DNA from: a virus
Strand: one strand, 5' to 3'
Virus record (IMG/VR): IMGVR_UViG_3300023177_000010
Coordinates: 1-30,348 of that record
DNA: 30,348 bases
In this document: piece by piece, positions 2,498 through 18,635 of the stretch
Numbering within the stretch: the stretch's first letter is position 1
How the letters are laid out: each line of letters begins with the position of its first letter
Position numbers and translations under genes: made by a program
The notes under the pieces: generated by a model
What the model was told of the DNA's origin: nothing
What the model saw: only the letters and a program-made list of their open reading frames with translations
Databases searched by the model: none

Positions 2498-5400
2498 ACG
2501 ACAGCCTCCGTCTTTAGTCCGCGGGTTTCCCACCTGTCGTAATGGGCTTCAAGGTCGAGCACTCGCTTGATAAGCGTTTCTCCGATGATGCGATTCTCCT
2601 CCCGGAGTTTTTCGAGCTGGGCGACTACCTGGCGGTTATCGAGCATCGCCTTACTGTCATCATGAGAGATCACGCGGCCCGGAGAAGTGTGCATCAGTTC
2701 CCAACCACGCTCGCCGACGATCTTGAAGCCCGAATCCATCGAGCCGCCATCGGCGTAACCGGGAACCCCCGCAAGCGCGAGCGCGTAATCGGTACGTGAC
2801 CGGTACGACGACGCCAAAAGCGTCGGTGTGTAGCCAGAGACGCCAGCCATTTCGAAAGACTGCGCAAGCGCGGTGATCATCGGTGATAGCTGATCCATCA
2901 CACTCGTTGCCGTCGCGAGGTAGCCCGCCATCGAGGACGCGGTGAAGGTTCCCGACTGCATCGCCGTAGTCATCTCTTGCAGCACCGGAGCCAGCAGCTC
3001 CATTGCCACGTCGTTGACAAACTGCGAAACCGCCATCGAGCGAATTGACGTCTTTATCGCCGCGTCGTACTGGCCGACGAGAGCCTCGCCAGCCTGCGCC
3101 GCCGAGTTGTTGTCTATTGCATCGAGGATTGTCTGAGCGATAGAGTCAGCAGACACTCCCGTCACGGTCTTAGTCACTTGCGCCCAGTACGCCTCCGTCA
3201 CGCCACCAAGATCGCCGACAGTAGCGATAGTGTACTCCAGTAGCGTTTTTGCGCTCTGGATGTCGCGGAGCGTCGCCGGAGTCATGTACTCCGACAAGGT
3301 CTGCCCCGCAGTGTCCATAACAGCGAGGTAATCCATCAGGTCCTGCATGCCTTGCTCAGCACGTTCCCCAAGCAGGCGCGCCCCTGCTGGTTTGCCCGCG
3401 ATGGCTCCCATGCCAGTGTACCCAACCGTAGCGTCATAAGTCCATCCAGCCCCCTGCAAAAGCCTCAGCGACTCCGTACCTCCAGAGAGTGCAGACTGCA
3501 CCATCTGGTCATACCCGGATCGGCGAGCACTATCATGCTGCGCCTTGCCCTGCTTATCGCCACCAAGGATCGAAGTTGTAAGACCTACCACCCCACCGAT
3601 CACCGCACCCCACGGGCCTGCGATCGTTGCACCCGCCGCAGCCATAGACGCTGCGCTCGAAATTGCGTTGCCGACCGATCCGCCGACCGCCTGCCCGACG
3701 CCCGACACAATGGCCGCGTACCCGCCAATCTGATTTGCGACGATCTGGTCGGGAGTCATCTGTGACGTGTCAACACTAAGCATCGATAGTCCGTTGCCGA
3801 CGCTGGAAAAAGCGCCACCAATCCGACCGCCGAGAATGTTCCCCGCTGAAGTCAAAGCCTCAGCGGCATCACCGAGCTTGTTGACGGTCTTCGTTGCATT
3901 GAGGCCCGTCGCATCGCCCGCCTGTTGAACTCCCACGTTTAAGAACTGAGACTGAGCCTCTTCAAAGGCATAAGTCTCATACATCTTCTTCTCGACGGCG
4001 AGATACTGAGTCATATCGATGGCACCAGCCTTGAGAAGCGAGTTTATTGCCTTGCGCCCTTCGGCCTCCTCTTTCATAAGCTGGATTTGTCCAGGGAACT
4101 CTTCCGTGTACTTCGCGTACCACTCGACCGCCTTCGCCAGCTCCAACGCTTCGCTCTGAGCCGCAGCGGAAAGTTCATCAGTCTGCTTTGAAGCGCGTCC
4201 GACCGCCGCTGAGTGCGCCGTATGCGCCTCCGTCGATTTCAAGACCGCCGCCGAATTATCTTTATGAGCGTTTCCGTCGTAATAGTCCGACATGCGCGGA
4301 TTATCGACAAGACCGTAAAGCTGCTCAACGGTGCGCCGAGGTGTTTGCTGTGCGTCAATCTTTTGGAGCAGCTTATTCCAGCTGTTTTCTTTATCAAGCG
4401 ACTCCAACCATTTATCGCCCTTATCTGCCAGGTCCCAAAGTTTTACAGCCCACCCGAAAGCCTGCTGAATCGACTGCCCGACCTGAATCCACCGCCGCTC
4501 CGAGTCGTTTGCGGCGTTGACCATCGCTACGCCAGCCGCATCAGCATCTTCCGCTATACCGATAAAAAGACCCTTGACACCCGACAGGACATCTTTGTAC
4601 GCTTCAGTCTCGATGATGGCCTCTCCAACCTTCTGCTTTGCCATCTCGAACGCCTGCGCGGTCTGACCTTTAAGCCGGTCGGCGGATCCGCCCATCTGCC
4701 GGAACGCCTCATCCGCCGCGCCCGCGTTGTCGGCCATTGCGGCAAGGTCAGCAGCGTAGGTCTGTGCTCCAGTCGAGAGCAGCGGCATGATCGCCCGCAG
4801 CGCCTCTTCGCGCTGTATCAGCCGGTTGATCGGTTGGCCAGTGCGCTCGGACGCCTGTTCGAGGAGCTGCAAAGCGCCCGTCAAGCCGTGGCCGGACTTG
4901 ATCAGGTTATCGCTCGATATGCCCGCAGCAGCAAGCGCCCTGGCAAGATCAGTCGATGGTTTGGACAGCTCCATAATCGCCGCACTGACCGACGTCACCG
5001 CGATGGCGGTAGACTGCCCTTGCAGGGTTAGCGTTGCCACCGACGCGCCGACCTCATCGAGGGACACCCCCGCTGGAGCCGCCACCGCCGTAAGCTGTCC
5101 AAGATGCTGAGCCAGCTCTGGAATAGTCGTTACGCCCTTTCCGACGATGGTAAAGAGATCATCGCTCACCGACGCCGCGTCACCGGCGCTTTTCCCGTAA
5201 GCGTTGAGGATCGCCGTGACGACCTTGCCCGTCTCGCCAACATCAGCCACTCCACCGACAGCCAACCGCGACGCCGCATCAAGCACCATCGCAGATTGAG
5301 CCGCGTCGGCAAAGCCAGACGATACGATGTCATACTTGGCTTTGGCAAGCGAGTCAAACGACTGTCCGGTCGTTATAGCCAGGCGGCCAAGCTCGTCGCT

Positions 5401-6801: not shown

Positions 6802-6995
6802 TATTTCATCTCCTTTTCGATTTCTGATTTGCGTTTCCACCCCTGTCTCAGCAGTTCCTTCGCCACCCATTCGACGGTAGGTAGCTCTTCACCTGTCCCA
6901 GGGTGGATCAAGGTGATATACTTTTCCTCCACTACCTCGGCGGTGGCGACAAGTTCGGACATCCCGTCCGAGCGGTCAGATTGCGTTTTCGGCAT
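6801..6995 (-). CDS. Small charged protein between gp37 and the tail tube
   Basis: This 64-residue product is not assigned to a family. The start at 6995 has aagga five bases upstream and overlaps the end of the gp37-like gene by 20 bases. An alternative start at 6962 (MSELVATAEV) would avoid the overlap. The core, KYITLIHPGTGEELPTVEWV, followed by a Lys/Glu-rich helix, looks like a small folded protein. It sits where Mu encodes gp38, so a minor tail-related role is possible. Confidence 0.55.
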   Translation of the reverse strand: MPKTQSDRSDGMSELVATAEVVEEKYITLIHPGTGEELPTVEWVAKELLRQGWKRKSEIEKEMK

Positions 6996-7923
6996 AGCCA
7001 TCCTTGCATTTATAGGCGACTTCGTAGGTCGCCACGGTTTCTGTGTAATCAATCACTCCGCCGGTCACGTACCGGCTCGATACCGGCCCGACGGTCAACG
7101 AACGAGCGAGGCCGCCAAAGATCAATCCATCAGCGATTCCATCGACGAAGAGCCGCCTTTCGACCTCCGCCAGAAGCGAGCTGGCTTCGGGTGCGTGGTC
7201 GTCGCGCGTGGCGATCTTGACCGTCAGCGTCGCGACGCGCATTGTCGCACCGAGGCTGTCGTCGTCTGGAGAAAGCCCCTCGTCGCCCAGGGAAAAAACG
7301 ATTTCCGGCATTTCGTCCGCGATCAGCGCCAGCTCCGACCCGACGCCAACAAAGACCTCATAGATCTGGAGAAGGTCAGACACCGCCGTCAAGAGTTGCT
7401 CGCGGACGTGCGTTTCGTCGGCAACTGGAAGCGGGAGATACGTCCAGCGCTGAACCGGGACGGTGACAAGCAGACCGTACTGCCAAACCTCCTCGCCGAA
7501 CTCACTGAGGAGTGTCTCCTCGCCAAGCTCGCACATACCAACCGCGCCGGCAGGGGTGAAAAACCGGAGATGGTCTGCGGCGATACTGAGCGTCTCATAG
7601 ACGCCCGTCGCCTGCGAAGCGGGGTACAGCTCGCGGGAGAGCACCAGTACCTCAAAGAGCATCCGCGAATCCTCGACCGCGCGGCCACGCCCCCGGCGAA
7701 CCTGCTGGCGCTTCTGACCCATGTAGCGCACAAGCACCGCGCCCTCGCTGGAGAGGCGGTTGATCTCAGTCTCAGTCACCTTCGACGGGTACGCCTCGAC
7801 CGGCAGCGGCACCGGCGTATCAACGCCGCCCCGCTTGCGGACGACGACGAGGTCGTCAGCACCAGCAACCGGGGCAGAAAGCCGCGCAATCAGCGCATCG
7901 GAGATGTCGGTAATGAGGCTCAT
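6976..7923 (-). CDS. Gp37-like (DUF1834) protein with a C-terminal tail-terminator-like domain
   Basis: This 315-residue protein has two parts. Residues 1-150 resemble Mu gp37/DUF1834 (MSLITDISDALIARLSAP start, then a strand-rich domain). Residues about 165-310 look like a tail terminator/tail completion protein: a helix VREQLLTAVSDLLQ, strands ATMRVATLTVKIATRDDH, a helix SSLLAEVERRLF, and final strands with YEVAYKC. The function would be closing the tail tube and joining it to the head. This copy is intact. The first 247 bases of the gene are repeated at 9600-9846, where they start the methyltransferase fusion. Confidence 0.7.
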   Translation of the reverse strand: MSLITDISDALIARLSAPVAGADDLVVVRKRGGVDTPVPLPVEAYPSKVTETEINRLSSEGAVLVRYMGQKRQQVRRGRGRAVEDSRMLFEVLVLSRELYPASQATGVYETLSIAADHLRFFTPAGAVGMCELGEETLLSEFGEEVWQYGLLVTVPVQRWTYLPLPVADETHVREQLLTAVSDLLQIYEVFVGVGSELALIADEMPEIVFSLGDEGLSPDDDSLGATMRVATLTVKIATRDDHAPEASSLLAEVERRLFVDGIADGLIFGGLARSLTVGPVSSRYVTGGVIDYTETVATYEVAYKCKDGYAENAI

Positions 7924-8385
7924 ACTGGCTTACTTGCTCTCCAGCGTCTTGATAAGGCCCGCACGAGCATCGTCATCCATGCCGTACACCGCAAGCATCG
8001 CCTCATCGGTGAGGTCTTCCCCGGAGGCGTGCGCTGCCGAGATCATCGTCGAGACCGTCCGCACCGGCAGGAGCGCCTCCGTGGCGCTTATCGTCTCAGT
8101 AACAATCGTATCAATTATATCCGTCCCCGCCATGGAGCGAGGCACGCCAGCCGCCCCGGCAGGGCGCCCCACAGGTACCCCGAGGTCAGCCCCGGCAAGG
8201 TCGAGCAACAGGCGCGCTTTATCCGTCGCCATCAACACAGTTTTACCCGTGTCCATGCCGATCGTTCCAGCTTTAACCGACCCACCTGCCTTAATTCTCG
8301 CGCTGGAATTGCCAGCTATGGCGTAAGCCAGCCGGTCGCGCCCCGTCATTGGCTTTTCAATACGCATAGCAGAACAGCCGGAAAG
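7677..8385. repeat. 709-bp direct repeat, copy 1
   Basis: The sequence from ccgcgcggccacg to ccggaaag recurs at 9600-10308 with a constant offset of 1923 bp, and I found no difference between the copies. It contains the 5' part of the gp37-like gene (7923-7677), the 6-bp gap, and the 3' part of the lipoprotein gene reading (8385-7930). Confidence 0.97.
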
Positions 8386-9846
8386 TTCGAACTCGTCCGG
8401 GTTCCGGACGCGGTAGCGGACCTCATTCTCGGTTTCCTCCCAGACGGCTTCTGCCCGCAGGCTGTCCTCTGTGGACGCCTTGGCGGACCGCTCCGCGCCC
8501 TCGGCTCTGCGGCAGATGAACAGACGTTCCTTGGCGTGGGCCGCCTCGCCGTGCCGGGATGTGATGGCGTAATGGTGATCGTGGGAGCGCATCGACGAAT
8601 CCCGTCCCAGGGAGGCGATGATCCGTCGCATTTCCGATTCGTTCGGATAGGCATGGTCCCGGTAGGAAATGAGCCAGTGCGGGAAGTGCTTGGCATTGCC
8701 GAGGAAGGACTCGAAGAACTCCGCGGCGTTGGCGCGGGTCACGGTCTTGTGGTCGGTCTCGTAGTGTTTGGTCTTGGAGTCTTCGACAAGGGTCAGCCCC
8801 TCCCAATAGGTCATCAGTCCTTCCACGAAGTGGTAGGATTTCTCGTAATTGGTGGTCGAAAACTTCGTGGCGTAAGGCGGATCGAAATAGGCGAGGTCGG
8901 CCTTGGCCTCCGGCAGGAAGTCGTTGATGTCCTTGCGGGATGCCTTGCACGCCTTGCCGTTGTCGAAAACGAGGGCGTTGATGCGGGCCACGTTCTTGCG
9001 CAGCCGCTCCTTGAATTCCTCCGGGGTGTCCTCGCGCTTGCCGTAGCGGGTCGACGACGAGAAATGCCCGAAGCCGCCCTTGTTGCCGGACATGCAGGTC
9101 TTGCCCAGGGCGAAGAGAGCGATGTCTTTCTTGAAACCCGAGAGTTTGTCGATGTTCGACCGGATCGTGTCGATCAGGCCGTGGACGCCCTTGGCGAAGA
9201 AGATGCCCTTGAAGTTGTCCCGGACGAAGGTTCCGGCCTTCGCGTTGTCCGCGAGCAGCGCCTCCAGGTCCTCATCGGAGAGACGCACCTTGTCGTTCTC
9301 GATGATCGCCCGGGCCGCGTGGTGGCAGTAGCGCAGCCGGTCGTTGGCCAGGACCCGCAGGCCCTTGGTCTTGTACATGTAGGCCACGACCGCCGAACCA
9401 GAGAAGGCGTCGGCCGCGGATTCCACCCCCTCCGGCGTGTGTTTCCAAATCCAGTCGACCAGCTTCTGCTTCGAGCCGATGTAGTTGGTGATGTATTTAG
9501 GCCGCTCTTCCGGCGACGGCTCCTCGGCAGCCGCCTCGGCCTGGGCCTCGAGCGCCTCGAAGTCCAGGTCCAGGGCGGCGTCCGTTTCGAGGAGGAACGC
9601 CGCGCGGCCACGCCCCCGGCGAACCTGCTGGCGCTTCTGACCCATGTAGCGCACAAGCACCGCGCCCTCGCTGGAGAGGCGGTTGATCTCAGTCTCAGTC
9701 ACCTTCGACGGGTACGCCTCGACCGGCAGCGGCACCGGCGTATCAACGCCGCCCCGCTTGCGGACGACGACGAGGTCGTCAGCACCAGCAACCGGGGCAG
9801 AAAGCCGCGCAATCAGCGCATCGGAGATGTCGGTAATGAGGCTCAT
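7930..9846 (-). CDS. Tripartite fusion: gp37 N-terminus + D12 adenine-N6 DNA methyltransferase + lipoprotein C-terminus
   Basis: The frame is 638 residues without a stop. Residues 1-82 equal the start of the gp37-like protein. Residues 83-487 are foreign: an acidic linker, then an alpha-class (D12, Dam-type) methyltransferase with motif X (NYIGSKQKL), motif I (D146-AFSGS, AdoMet binding) and catalytic DPPY (D322-325). Residues 488-638 equal the C-terminal 151 residues of the phage lipoprotein from its LSGC onward. The expected reaction is AdoMet-dependent N6-methylation of adenine in DNA. The foreign part has no start or stop of its own, so it is an internal piece of a longer gene. Its codons look more GC3-rich than its neighbours. 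Activity is uncertain, and an assembly artefact must be excluded. Confidence 0.75.
   Translation of the reverse strand: MSLITDISDALIARLSAPVAGADDLVVVRKRGGVDTPVPLPVEAYPSKVTETEINRLSSEGAVLVRYMGQKRQQVRRGRGRAAFLLETDAALDLDFEALEAQAEAAAEEPSPEERPKYITNYIGSKQKLVDWIWKHTPEGVESAADAFSGSAVVAYMYKTKGLRVLANDRLRYCHHAARAIIENDKVRLSDEDLEALLADNAKAGTFVRDNFKGIFFAKGVHGLIDTIRSNIDKLSGFKKDIALFALGKTCMSGNKGGFGHFSSSTRYGKREDTPEEFKERLRKNVARINALVFDNGKACKASRKDINDFLPEAKADLAYFDPPYATKFSTTNYEKSYHFVEGLMTYWEGLTLVEDSKTKHYETDHKTVTRANAAEFFESFLGNAKHFPHWLISYRDHAYPNESEMRRIIASLGRDSSMRSHDHHYAITSRHGEAAHAKERLFICRRAEGAERSAKASTEDSLRAEAVWEETENEVRYRVRNPDEFELSGCSAMRIEKPMTGRDRLAYAIAGNSSARIKAGGSVKAGTIGMDTGKTVLMATDKARLLLDLAGADLGVPVGRPAGAAGVPRSMAGTDIIDTIVTETISATEALLPVRTVSTMISAAHASGEDLTDEAMLAVYGMDDDARAGLIKTLESK
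8386..9599 (-). mobile_element. Foreign 1214-bp insert carrying the methyltransferase domain
   Basis: This unique segment lies between the two 709-bp repeats. Insert plus one repeat equals 1923 bp, a multiple of three, which keeps the frame. No terminal inverted repeats, transposase or integrase were seen in it. The R-M-R structure is what a single homologous crossover of a circle carrying R and M would leave. Confidence 0.65.
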
Positions 9847-14436: not shown

Positions 14437-14879
14437 TGGCCAAGCGAGACCAATTATATCCGGTCGCTCGGCAGCTTTTTATGGAGCGCCACACCTTCGA
14501 GCAGATGGAGACCCACTTTAAGCAAGCCGGAACCCCGGTCAGTGAGCGTCAGCTCCGCGAGTGGGCGAAGGACGGCAAGTGGGCCGAACAGCGCGAGAAC
14601 ATCGAGGAGATACAGGCCAAGAGCAGCGAGAAGCTGCATAAGGTCATGGACAAGCTCCTCGACCGCATCATCAAGGTGCTCGACGAAGACGGCGAACCGA
14701 ACCCGGCCCTGCTGAACTTCGTGAAAAGCGTCGCACCCGGCCTCGTCCGCTTGCAGGAGTACGAAGAGGCCGCCGCGCCATCGGGTAGCGACCCGGATAA
14801 AACCGCCGCCGCCGAGCGCCTTGAGGCCGCCAGCGACGAAATCGCGAAGACCCTCGCGCAACTTGGCCTGCTCCGCTGA
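14436..14879 (+). CDS. Small terminase subunit (DUF1804/gp27-like)
   Basis: This 147-residue protein has an N-terminal helix-turn-helix (residues 8-45, TFEQMETHFKQAGTPVSERQ followed by LREWAKDGKWAEQR), then a helical oligomerisation region (ENIEEIQAKSSEKLHKVMDK). This is the DUF1804 architecture of Mu-like small terminases, which bind the packaging site and hand DNA to the large subunit. It is coupled by overlap to the large terminase gene (TGATG). Confidence 0.8.
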   Translation: MAKRDQLYPVARQLFMERHTFEQMETHFKQAGTPVSERQLREWAKDGKWAEQRENIEEIQAKSSEKLHKVMDKLLDRIIKVLDEDGEPNPALLNFVKSVAPGLVRLQEYEEAAAPSGSDPDKTAAAERLEAASDEIAKTLAQLGLLR

Positions 14880-16459
14880 TGCCAACCGAATCCCGACATC
14901 CCGACGAGTTCTCGCAGTACACGAAGCTGCCGATGGAGAAAATCTTTCTCCCGTTTCAGCTCGACGTCATTCAAGACCGTCACATCGCCGACCTGATCCA
15001 AAAAGGCAGGCAGGAGGGTATTTCGTGGGCGCTCGCAGAGAAAGCGCGCGAAATCACCGGAATTGAGGGACGCTGGGACACGTTTGTCGGAACCAAGACC
15101 AAGCTCCTCGCCAAGCAGTTTATCCAGGACACAGCGGCATGGGCCAAGCTCTTCCGCCTCATCAAAAGCGTCCCGGACGCGATATACGAGGACGAGACCG
15201 TCACCGAAAACGCCGAGACGGGCGAAAAAGAGGCCGTCAGCACCTACCACGTCAAATTCCCGAACCGGCGCGAAGTGACTGCGCTTTCGAGCAACCCGGA
15301 CGCCTGGCGCGGATGGCGCGGGTATAAAATCGCCGACGAGTTCGCTCTGCACAAGCAGCAGGCGGACGTGCTCGACGCGCTCTTGCCGAGCCGCATGTGG
15401 CGTCAGCCGATCACGATCTGCTCGACGCACAAAGGTAAAACCTCCGAGTTCAACAAGCTCATCATCAAGTACAAAAAGGGCTTGCTCGGCGACGACTGGA
15501 ACCTCCATACTATCCCGATCACTCGGGCGGTCGATGAGGGAATGCTCGAAAAGATTTATAAAAAGCCGTTCAGCGCCGAAGAGCGGGCTGAGTGGTTGCG
15601 CCAGAAAGAGCAGGAGGAGGGTATCCGGCGTTGGAATCAGGAGTACATGTGCATCCCGGAGGATGAGGAAGGCAGCTTCTTCATCTACGACCAGATCGTG
15701 CAGTGCGAGTACGACGACGCCCTGTGGTTCCCGTTCGATGGCGTCAAGAAGTTCAAAGGCAGCGGCGAAGAGCAGGAGGCGCTCGCGTACTTCCGCAAGG
15801 TCGCGCAGCACGCCCACCAGCACGCCGTCGGAGAGCTATACATCGGCGAGGACGTGGGCCGCGATGTCAACTACACCGTCATCTGCCTGCTCGAAAATCT
15901 CGCAGGAATCCGCTTCGTCCGCGCCATCGTGGCGCTTGACGGGATGCGCTTCCAGGTGCAGCAGGACTGCGTGAGCGAGTGGATCAAGCTTCCGAAGCAC
16001 CGCCGGACGTGCATCGATAATCGCGGCATCGGTCGCGAGACCTCGGAGCGCCTGCAAGAGCGCCACGGCTCCTACGCCGTCGAGCGCATTGACGCGAGCC
16101 TCAAGCTCAAAGAGATTTTCGCCTATGCCGTGCTGCGGCTGATGCTCGACAAGATGCTCCGCTACCCTGCAGACGACACGATCCGCGACGACTTCCACTC
16201 GATCCGCAAAGAGAAAACCGACGCCGGGAACATCAGGTATGTCGCCGGAAAGAACGAAACCGACGAGAACAGTCACGGCGACTTTTACACTGCCATCGCG
16301 CTCGCTGTCCACGCCGCAGAAGGCGCGACAGGGAGCATGGACGACATCATCGAGCAGACGAATCGACCGCTCCCGCAGGAGCAGCCGAGCGGCTTGCTCT
16401 CCGCGCTCGGCAGCCTCGCGGGCGACATCATCAACAGCTTTAGCCAGTACCGCCAATGA
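14879..16459 (+). CDS. Large terminase subunit (Mu gp28-like)
   Basis: This 526-residue packaging motor has an N-terminal ATPase. LPFQLDVIQD is followed by the atypical Walker A of this family (KGRQEGISWA, about residues 42-51) and a Walker B region KIADEFAL (about 150-157). The C-terminal nuclease is RNase H-like, with the first catalytic aspartate in YIGEDVGRD (about 321-329) and a second acidic patch in RRTCIDNRGIGRETSE. The order small terminase, large terminase, portal with 1-4 base overlaps is the Mu gp27-gp28-gp29 arrangement. In Mu-like phages headful packaging starts at the integrated left end. Confidence 0.9.
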   Translation: MPTESRHPDEFSQYTKLPMEKIFLPFQLDVIQDRHIADLIQKGRQEGISWALAEKAREITGIEGRWDTFVGTKTKLLAKQFIQDTAAWAKLFRLIKSVPDAIYEDETVTENAETGEKEAVSTYHVKFPNRREVTALSSNPDAWRGWRGYKIADEFALHKQQADVLDALLPSRMWRQPITICSTHKGKTSEFNKLIIKYKKGLLGDDWNLHTIPITRAVDEGMLEKIYKKPFSAEERAEWLRQKEQEEGIRRWNQEYMCIPEDEEGSFFIYDQIVQCEYDDALWFPFDGVKKFKGSGEEQEALAYFRKVAQHAHQHAVGELYIGEDVGRDVNYTVICLLENLAGIRFVRAIVALDGMRFQVQQDCVSEWIKLPKHRRTCIDNRGIGRETSERLQERHGSYAVERIDASLKLKEIFAYAVLRLMLDKMLRYPADDTIRDDFHSIRKEKTDAGNIRYVAGKNETDENSHGDFYTAIALAVHAAEGATGSMDDIIEQTNRPLPQEQPSGLLSALGSLAGDIINSFSQYRQ

Positions 16460-17766
16460 TCCTCGATAAAAACGGGAACCCGATCCTCTCCACGCTTCCG
16501 GGCGCGAGCGAAATCGCCACGAGGCAGCTCGTCGAGGGGCTGATGAATGCCACGGCGCAGCTCACCAATCCGAGCAAAACGCTCACGACCATCTCGAAGG
16601 CAATCACCGCTTTCGACCAGGTGCGCCGCCAGCCGGACGTGGCCGCCGCGTCGCTGAACTACAAGTCGGGCATCGCTGCGCTGATCCCCGACCTGAGCCA
16701 GAGCACCACGCAGGGCGCGCGCGCCGAGTTTCTGCAAGGCGTGCTCAACACGCTCGACCTGCCGCGCATCATCGGCGGCATCGTCTCGGCGCGGGAGTAC
16801 GGGTACGCCGTGCTCGAAGTGGTGTGGGGCAAGGTGGATAAATGGATACTGCCGATCCGAATTGAGGAAAAGCCGCGCGAATGGTTCTTTTTCGACCAGG
16901 GCAACCGGCTCCGCCTGCGCAAGCAGGGCGTCGCCGATGGAGTACTTTGCGGTGGCGACGACCCGGAGAGCGAGTACCCGCGCAGCTTCCTGCTCATTCA
17001 GCACGAGGCGAGCTACCTCAACCCCTACGGCGTCGGCCTGCTCGACACGCTCTACTGGTACGTCATGGGGTTGTACTCGAATTTCGAGTGGCTCCTGCGC
17101 TTCATCGAGCGCTTCGGCCACGACTTCATCATTGGAAAGGTGCCGTCGAGCGCCGACCAGAAATTCCAGGATGCGACGCTTTCCGCCTTGATGGTGCTGC
17201 GCAACCGTGCCGCCGCCGTTTTCAAGGAGGGGACGCAGATCGAGTTCGTTGAGAACAAAGGCCGCAGCTCATCGAGCGACACCTACATCGCCTTTGAGAA
17301 GCTCGTCGTCGGCAAGATCAACAAACTTTATCTCGGAACCGAACTCCTCGACAAGAACGACGCTTCGGGCGCGCGTGCCAGCTCGCAGACCGGCGCGGAC
17401 ATCCGCGACGACGCGCTCGCGGTCGGTAAATCGCTCGTCGAGCACGGCTTCAACACGATCCTGCGCTGGATCAGCGAGGTCAACACCTTGCCCGGCAGCG
17501 ACGCGGAGGTGATCCGCTTTGTGCTCACCAAGCCTGCTGAGACGACCAAAGAGCAGGCAGAGATCGATCAAATCTACGCGACGGCTGGCGACTTCACCAT
17601 CTCCGAGCAGCTCCTGCTTCGGCGCGGCTACGAAAAGGACGACTTTATCCCGAAGCAACCCGTCACCAACGCGACCGGCACGGGCTTTGCGGCCACGTCA
17701 AGCGGCTACGGGGAAGGGCTTGACGGGCTACTCAACGCAGTGGAGGCCGCAAAAAAAAAGCCCTGA
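16456..17766 (+). CDS. Portal protein (DUF935, Mu gp29-like)
   Basis: This is a 436-residue protein. The DUF935 signature is clear: a helical stem region (QVRRQPDVAAASLNYKSGIA), REYGYAVLEVVW, YGVGLLDTLYWYVMGLYSNF, WLLRFIERFGHDFIIGK and KLYLGTELLDKNDASGARAS. It forms the dodecameric portal through which DNA is packaged. The start overlaps the terminase stop by ATGA. The last codons run into nine A residues and then CCC TGA. This A-run is a potential -1 frameshift site that would join the portal to the MuF protein. Confidence 0.9.
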   Translation: MILDKNGNPILSTLPGASEIATRQLVEGLMNATAQLTNPSKTLTTISKAITAFDQVRRQPDVAAASLNYKSGIAALIPDLSQSTTQGARAEFLQGVLNTLDLPRIIGGIVSAREYGYAVLEVVWGKVDKWILPIRIEEKPREWFFFDQGNRLRLRKQGVADGVLCGGDDPESEYPRSFLLIQHEASYLNPYGVGLLDTLYWYVMGLYSNFEWLLRFIERFGHDFIIGKVPSSADQKFQDATLSALMVLRNRAAAVFKEGTQIEFVENKGRSSSSDTYIAFEKLVVGKINKLYLGTELLDKNDASGARASSQTGADIRDDALAVGKSLVEHGFNTILRWISEVNTLPGSDAEVIRFVLTKPAETTKEQAEIDQIYATAGDFTISEQLLLRRGYEKDDFIPKQPVTNATGTGFAATSSGYGEGLDGLLNAVEAAKKKP

Positions 17767-17793
17767 CGGCGAGCGCTGAAGAGCTGCTCGCCG
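17741..17793 (+). promoter_or_regulatory. Probable dnaX-like -1 frameshift signal joining portal and MuF
   Basis: There are three elements in the dnaX order. An SD-like TGGAGG (17741-17746) lies 7 nt before heptamer A AAA AAG (17754-17760, in phase with portal codons AAA AAA AAG). A strong stem-loop starts 6 nt downstream: 17767-17774 pairs with 17786-17793, with an inner gct/agc stem and GAAG loop. The -1 frame enters directly into the MuF reading frame. Confidence 0.65.
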
Positions 17794-18635
17794 CCGCCCC
17801 CGATCCGGATTTTATCGACGCCTGGAGCACGACCCTTGAACAGGCCTTGAACGCCGAGTGGCGCAAAGGCTACGCCGACAAAGCCGCAGAGATGGCGGAC
17901 ATCGAGCGCGAGGAGGCGAGTCAGGGATTCGCCGCCGATCCGGAGCTGAAAATTCCGACAAGCTGGGGCAACGCGGACGCCGCCAAGTTCCACAAATTCA
18001 AAGGTTTCGTTTCAGCGCTCATCACCGATCAGGAGCTTGCCGACGAAGTGAGCGCAAGCCTCACGGACACGCTGGCGCAGGGCATAGGCTTCCAGAAGTG
18101 GAAAAAGACGCTCGACAAGACCTTCGACCGCCTCGGCTACACCAAGCTGTCGAACTTCCATGCCGAGACGATCTTCCGCACCGAAACGAGCATGGCATAC
18201 GGGGCCGGGAGCTATGCCAAGCAGGCCGAAATGGCAGACAGCTTTCCGTACTGGGAGTACAGCACGGCGCACGACGAGCGTGTTCGCGACAGCCACCGCG
18301 TGCTCGACGGCAAAATCTTCCCGGCGACGAACCGGGAGTTTTACCCGCCGCTCGGCTTCCGGTGCCGATGCCGCGCGATTTCGGTCAGCGCCCGACGCGC
18401 CAAGCGCCTCGGCATCACCGGGCCGAGCAAGATCACGCCGGAGATGCGCGCCAACCTCGGGAACGCCGAGTTCCTCGGCAACAAGATCAAGAGCTTTGAG
18501 GACTACCTGACCGAGCAGCTCAAAACCCTCAGCCCCGACCGCGTCGCGATGATCACCGATAAGCTCGCGGAGCTGCTGAAATCGAAACCTGAACCGATAA
18601 CGCCAACAAACCAAACAGGAGGAACAACGCCATGA
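17760..18635 (+). CDS. MuF minor head protein (Mu gp30-like), probably made by frameshift from the portal
   Basis: The C-terminal half carries the Mu F-like head morphogenesis domain: FHAETIFRTETSMAYGAGSY, DERVRDSHRVLDG and the family-typical PPLGFRCRCRA. The frame is open from 17724 but has no ATG until 17892. The first common alternative start is TTG at 17847 without a ribosome site. The peptide before it (SAEELLAAAPDPDFIDAWST) reads like genuine protein. I therefore place its beginning at the -1 slip point (17760), giving 291 residues fused to the portal (about 726 in all). MuF proteins act in head morphogenesis and may be injected. If no frameshift occurs, the protein starts at 17847 or 17892. 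Confidence 0.75.
   Translation, partial: ALTASAEELLAAAPDPDFIDAWSTTLEQALNAEWRKGYADKAAEMADIEREEASQGFAADPELKIPTSWGNADAAKFHKFKGFVSALITDQELADEVSASLTDTLAQGIGFQKWKKTLDKTFDRLGYTKLSNFHAETIFRTETSMAYGAGSYAKQAEMADSFPYWEYSTAHDERVRDSHRVLDGKIFPATNREFYPPLGFRCRCRAISVSARRAKRLGITGPSKITPEMRANLGNAEFLGNKIKSFEDYLTEQLKTLSPDRVAMITDKLAELLKSKPEPITPTNQTGGTTP

Follow-up and report, generated by a model that had tools for sequence, protein, structure and literature searches.

Nine adenines at the portal-MuF junction of two groups of Mu-like phages: a candidate site of programmed slippage

The portal-MuF junction

The window, by which we mean the whole 30,348-nucleotide stretch of DNA analyzed here (positions 1 to 30,348 of IMG/VR record IMGVR_UViG_3300023177_000010), belongs to a Mu-like phage and encodes a Mu-transposase-like HTH domain on its minus strand. 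The features around its portal and MuF genes are collected in Table 1. Both the portal and the MuF profile matches exceed the curated cut-off, and these matches (PF06074 and PF04233), together with the reading of the frames, bear out the first-pass annotation in placing MuF in the -1 frame of the portal gene. The portal C-terminus reads VEAAKKKP followed by the stop codon, and a protein continued from residue 435 into the 291 residues of the MuF part would have 726 residues, in agreement with the length of about 726 first estimated. Elsewhere in the window, a 638-aa minus-strand ORF (7930-9846) with a D12-class adenine methyltransferase domain has as its neighbor a Gp37-like ORF (6976-7923).

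Table 1. Features at and around the portal-MuF junction of the window
Feature	Position	Strand	Basis or remark
Terminase large subunit	14879..16459	+	PF17289/PF03237; adjoins the portal gene on its upstream side
Portal gene (Mu gp29 / Portal_Mu), 436 aa, zero frame	16456..17766	+	PF06074, E 5.7e-54; PHROG 113 portal
TGA closing the MuF frame upstream of the putative slip site	17721..17723	+	Frame reading
SD-like TGGAGG	17741..17746	+	7 nt ahead of the A AAA AAG heptamer
A9, putative slippage run (codons GCA AAA AAA AAG)	17751..17759	+	Sequence, relatives; conserved element
Heptamer A AAA AAG, portal frame	17754..17760	+	Sequence; G at 17760
MuF (Mu gp30 / Phage_Mu_F), -1 frame, begins ALTASAEELL	17760..18635	+	PF04233, E 3.5e-22; open frame
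Portal stop TGA	17764..17766	+	Sequence; 4 nt past A9
Stem-loop, 8-bp arms 17767-17774 / 17786-17793	17767..17793	+	Folding; onset 6 nt past the G

At the junction itself, two long frames meet at a slippery site and the downstream frame has no start of its own. MuF had been described as lacking an ATG here, and the first ATG, GTG or TTG in its frame is indeed the TTG at 17847, with none in the 87 nt past A9. The window has no A/T run longer than this A9. The TGGAGG, the A AAA AAG heptamer within an A9G run and the 8-bp GC stem beginning 6 nt downstream, on which the first-pass annotation had built its proposal of a dnaX-like cassette, are all present. The stem-loop gains three inner base pairs past a bulge, has a predicted energy of -22.3 kcal/mol (z -2.5) and falls in the lowest 0.4% among the 38-nt windows of portal-MuF.

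Conservation of the run in two phage families

Scans of viral contigs and genomes yielded clade relatives of the window with 44-79% portal identity; among the genomes of the order of G001 that were searched, the portal was found in 7 of 98, and the genome loci among the clade relatives include three titled Chlorobiaceae and one titled Chlorobium. We assign the window's phage to the Mu-like phages of green sulfur bacteria and its clade to the phages of Chlorobiaceae. All 18 distinct junctions of the clade carry the run with MuF in the -1 frame (17 have A9 and one has A10), and the run is found in both phase 2 and phase 0. A strong stem is limited to the pair formed by the window and L009, the pair L022 and L023, and L065, where it lies in the lowest 0.1-0.4% of windows; the stem is unremarkable at the other 11 junctions tested, and GGAGG occurs in the window, L009, L022 and L023 only. 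Where the stem is present, its inner pairs covary between lineages, with the pairing read by hand. Conservation in relatives, which had been suggested as a check on both elements, was thus found for the run at every clade junction and for a strong stem in these five sequences only.

Relatives with a normal MuF start at this junction had been named in advance as the finding that would speak against a fusion by frameshift, and such a start is absent from 17 of the 18 clade junctions. The exception is L022, which has an ATG overlapping the portal stop and has nevertheless kept A9. In L010, L011, L012 and L023, a TAA stands against the run or just before it in the MuF frame, so that this frame opens at the run itself. 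The MuF residues encoded right past the run (LTxSxxxLL...DFIxAW) are conserved among relatives whose MuF proteins are 48-53% identical, in keeping with the earlier statement that protein-like sequence reaches up to the slip point. L029, of the same clade, has its portal and MuF fused in frame with A10 at the equivalent place. In the portal tree, the run-bearing clade, L065 and L029 are split by a fully supported branch from the relatives with a separately started MuF, and distant Mu-like phages in which MuF starts with ATG have no A9 at the junction. Two loci, L022 (6282-6296) and L164 (at the portal end), combine the run with an ATG or a GTG, respectively, that lies over the portal stop in the MuF frame, and these phages possibly have two routes to MuF at once.

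The second family is that of the cultured Rhodobacter phage RcapMu, whose junction reads CTA CAA AAA AAA GCC TGA with MuF in the -1 frame (L015, portal end near 4192-4203). A viral-contig scan with the RcapMu portal gave 80 loci, from which identical junctions were then removed. Among the 44 distinct out-of-frame junctions, 41 have A9, two have A8 and one has A10, and the run lies in phase 0 in 30 of them, in phase 2 in 11 and in phase 1 in three. Ten further distinct junctions are in-frame portal-MuF fusions of 915-970 aa, and every one of these has exactly A9. They are mirror images of the out-of-frame genes: in nine of the ten, reading in the -1 frame, equivalent to A10, would end at a stop 5-11 nt downstream of the run; the tenth, L154, has its nearby stop in the +1 frame instead, 4 nt past the run. 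The run is absent from all five genes of this family in which MuF has an ATGA or GTGA start. A9 is also read in the phage records RcWaterboi, RR1-B and EBPR siphovirus 4. The tree of the family calls for at least three changes between the fused and unfused states on well-supported branches. Sister pair L151/L152 has the same run in the same phase and a frame altered by downstream differences, and in L148/L143 the frame is altered by upstream differences, so by sequence comparison the frame switches in these sister pairs arise through changes outside the run. As a separate matter, RcapMu (L015) and L125 read A8, and the close relatives of RcapMu, L119 and L107, read A9; its frame suggests that the A8 of L125 is miscalled or a recent variant.

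The site appears to have been kept across divergent relatives beyond what coding needs, with synonymous positions conserved and A/T runs confined to the junction. In 520 kb of RcapMu-family sequence (65 loci), the A/T runs of at least eight are two A8, 55 A9 and one A10, and all 58 of them lie at the portal-MuF junction, although such counts come from related sequences that share ancestry within each family and are statistically non-independent. In 192 kb from the window's clade, the run is at every junction, and the other runs of nine are two T9 and three A9, the latter in stretches that appear to be non-coding. The extra A9 in L009, L010 and L024 was considered as a second slip site and set aside, as it lies in apparently non-coding DNA ~3 kb downstream. 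The tripeptide KKK is spelled (AAA)3 in 36 of 37 cases, as against a 30% share of AAA among Lys codons; the GTA that is usual for Val ahead of the run in phase 2 makes up 4.4% of Val codons; and in the window's clade the Leu ahead of the run is TTA or CTA in 12 of 12 cases, against a usage of 1-16% among Leu codons. On this codon choice, A9 as a by-product of encoding Lys was rejected.

Proposed slippage and its alternatives

From these features, all of them read directly from the genomes, we infer that A9 is probably a programmed slippage site that yields both portal and portal-MuF. Unslipped reading would give the 436-aa portal alone, ending 4 nt past A9; the gain of one A, with the polymerase writing A10, or a step back of one base by the ribosome would give the 726-residue portal-MuF. 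In the in-frame fused relatives, slippage at A9 would instead yield the portal alone. RNA polymerase slippage on A9 would be the mechanism common to the family, to which the SD-like element, the A AAA AAG heptamer and the stem-loop perhaps add -1 ribosomal frameshifting in the window's lineage, and we regard this division of labor as probable. The length of the run is kept near nine (A9 at 41 of 44 junctions in one family and 17 of 18 in the other) and its codon phase is free. The presence of A9 in all phases, with G or C next and with either product templated, favors transcriptional slippage as the shared mechanism, and so does the constant element itself, which is exactly nine A's in any phase, as in Thermus dnaX.

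The most substantial rival is a purely ribosomal -1 frameshift like that of E. coli dnaX, taking place on A AAA AAG and stimulated by SD and stem. In its favor, all three elements occur in the window and in L009 and some of them in L022 and L023, the stems stand out from nearly all other windows, and inner pairs covary by hand reading. The dnaX gene of Chlorobium phaeobacteroides has, moreover, been put forward (PMC5009743) as a ribosomal case with stimulators like those of E. coli and as a candidate for reversed frameshifting. Across the family as a whole, however, such stimulators are not conserved, as most relatives have neither the stem nor a strong SD. Seven bases in a fixed phase would be enough for the heptamer, yet nine A's are kept; in phase 0, AAG in the last of the three Lys codons would be all that it demands, yet AAA stands there in 36 of 37; and many RcapMu-family sites have only A AAA AAA or A AAA AAC. 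A second Lys tRNA (CUU) in Chlorobiales may also weaken slipping on AAG, an argument made in PMC5009743; in a Lys-tRNA pattern search the CTT anticodon alone was confirmed, and the TTT matches were due to chance (L077 and L078 are without a tRNA). We consider a purely ribosomal mechanism unlikely on this evidence. It is nonetheless the case that the SD, the A AAA AAG and the covarying stem of the window's lineage fit ribosomal frameshifting and count against our preferred reading, as do the A8 read in RcapMu and the separate MuF start that the ATG of L022 and the GTG of L164 may allow. The dnaX-like cassette of the first-pass annotation is present in the window but is not supported as a general mechanism, its stimulators being present in few lineages; a programmed frame transition that would yield portal and portal-MuF is supported, the site being conserved across two families.

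Other readings dispense with slippage altogether. MuF might be reinitiated at a CTG or other near-start codon over the portal stop, with A9 incidental, and a CTG does overlap the TGA in most members, as the ATG and GTG do in L022 and L164; but the codon is CTA in L063, L133, L139 and L170, and GTA or ATA in many RcapMu-family members, none of these being a start codon, and A9, its synonymous conservation and its presence in in-frame fusions would be left unexplained, for which reasons CTG reinitiation was rejected as very improbable. It is harder still to believe that MuF starts at TTG 17847 or ATG 17892 and that the open stretch upstream is noise. Both codons are in the MuF frame, but the conserved LTxSxxxLL...DFIxAW lies ahead of them, and in several relatives the 400 nt past the junction contain no start codon at all. 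Homopolymers are error-prone in sequencing and assembly, and the A8 in RcapMu and L125 could be taken as signs of such error, the true gene then being a plain fusion or normally started. Dozens of independent assemblies agree on the length and have a stop directly behind the run, and A9 is kept by relatives as divergent as those of the window's clade and likewise by RcWaterboi, RR1-B and EBPR siphovirus 4; an artifact was rejected on these many independent assemblies as having a negligible chance of being correct.

Possible mixed portal rings and related systems

Portals are rings of twelve subunits, and MuF-type minor head proteins are low-copy partners that bind the portal. With plain and MuF-bearing subunits made from one gene pair, mixed portal rings would form; if slippage occurred at a fixed rate, a few subunits per ring would bear MuF, and the amount of MuF in each head would be set by that rate. 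In its fullest form, our reading is that two distant Mu-like groups, the phages of Chlorobiaceae and a group around Rhodobacter and Rhizobium phages, build such mixed rings by polymerase slippage on exactly A9, that MuF is borne by a defined share of the subunits, in many members along with a C-terminal toxin-like domain, and that the templating of the short or the long form can switch because slippage supplies the other; toward this composite picture we lean with some reserve. If it is true, the covalent attachment of MuF to some of the portal subunits through slippage would directly answer what sets its copy number. The idea can be tested in the cultured phages RcapMu, RcWaterboi and RR1-B, and the mirror-image fusions that keep A9 constitute an unusually clean natural experiment on programmed slippage versus chance. 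In some relatives, MuF ends in a C-terminal toxin-like domain, either ART (L029:3453-6062) or a PBECR2 nuclease (L145:4001-6880 and L122:5383-6960), which would be tethered to the portal by slippage. The MuF of the window has no such domain, and the ~150 extra C-terminal MuF residues of L063 and L027 gave no Pfam match. In annotations of these phages MuF is broken or given a wrong start, and any toxin-like domain at its C-terminus would be misread as belonging to a free protein.

The slippage mechanism itself is known from dnaX. Nine is a slippage-prone run length in many bacteria (PMC1088944), and Thermus thermophilus dnaX undergoes transcriptional slippage on A9 (PMC1088944, PMC5009743). As in the phages, exactly nine A's give two product lengths there, and the phage genes fused in frame are built as in Thermus, the template encoding the long form and a shifted reading meeting a stop shortly past the run; the phage genes differ in being portal-MuF and in that most members template the short form, slippage leading to the long one. 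E. coli dnaX shares the SD-like element, A AAA AAG and stem with the window and L009, but its shift leads to the short product and that of the phages to the long one, and the stimulators are not kept across the phage family. In the five readable genomes of eight Chlorobiales examined for dnaX (L067, L069, L070, L073 and L074), an A9 or A10 is followed shortly by a zero-frame stop, with a -1 continuation, so that tau would need a shift. This gene belongs to the same host group and, like that of the phages, gives the short form by standard reading and the long form by a shift, although it is unrelated and has no strong stem past the run in the five genomes. By analogy, the host group seems to be used to such a signal.

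Ribosomal frameshifts are known in other phage structural genes, e.g., those of tail assembly chaperones, the T3/T7 coat, and the Listeria PSA capsid and tail shaft (PMC5009743). They resemble portal-MuF in that a fraction of a structural protein gets a C-terminal extension; they differ in being ribosomal and in other genes, none of them portal-MuF. In the virion proteome of two Mu-like roseophages, separate ORFs are listed for gp29 and the F protein, and no remark is made on this (PMC5488378). In the open-license literature we found no description of a portal with a frameshift, slippage or MuF fusion. The earlier statement that no portal-MuF example had been described was nearly right in that no paper was found; the use of slippage at portal-MuF appears to have been prefigured only by an annotator's note in the GenBank record of RcapMu (NC_016165), in which the submitters remark that a frameshift might let the portal gene be read through and that MuF is without a good ribosome site. 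The junction in question is homologous to that of the window, with MuF in -1; the note, although it raises a possible frameshift and the lack of such a site, calls the shift +1, concerns one record, and names neither a slippage run nor a family. The same record notes a further potential -1 frameshift in RcapMu35, just upstream of the portal (L015:2767).
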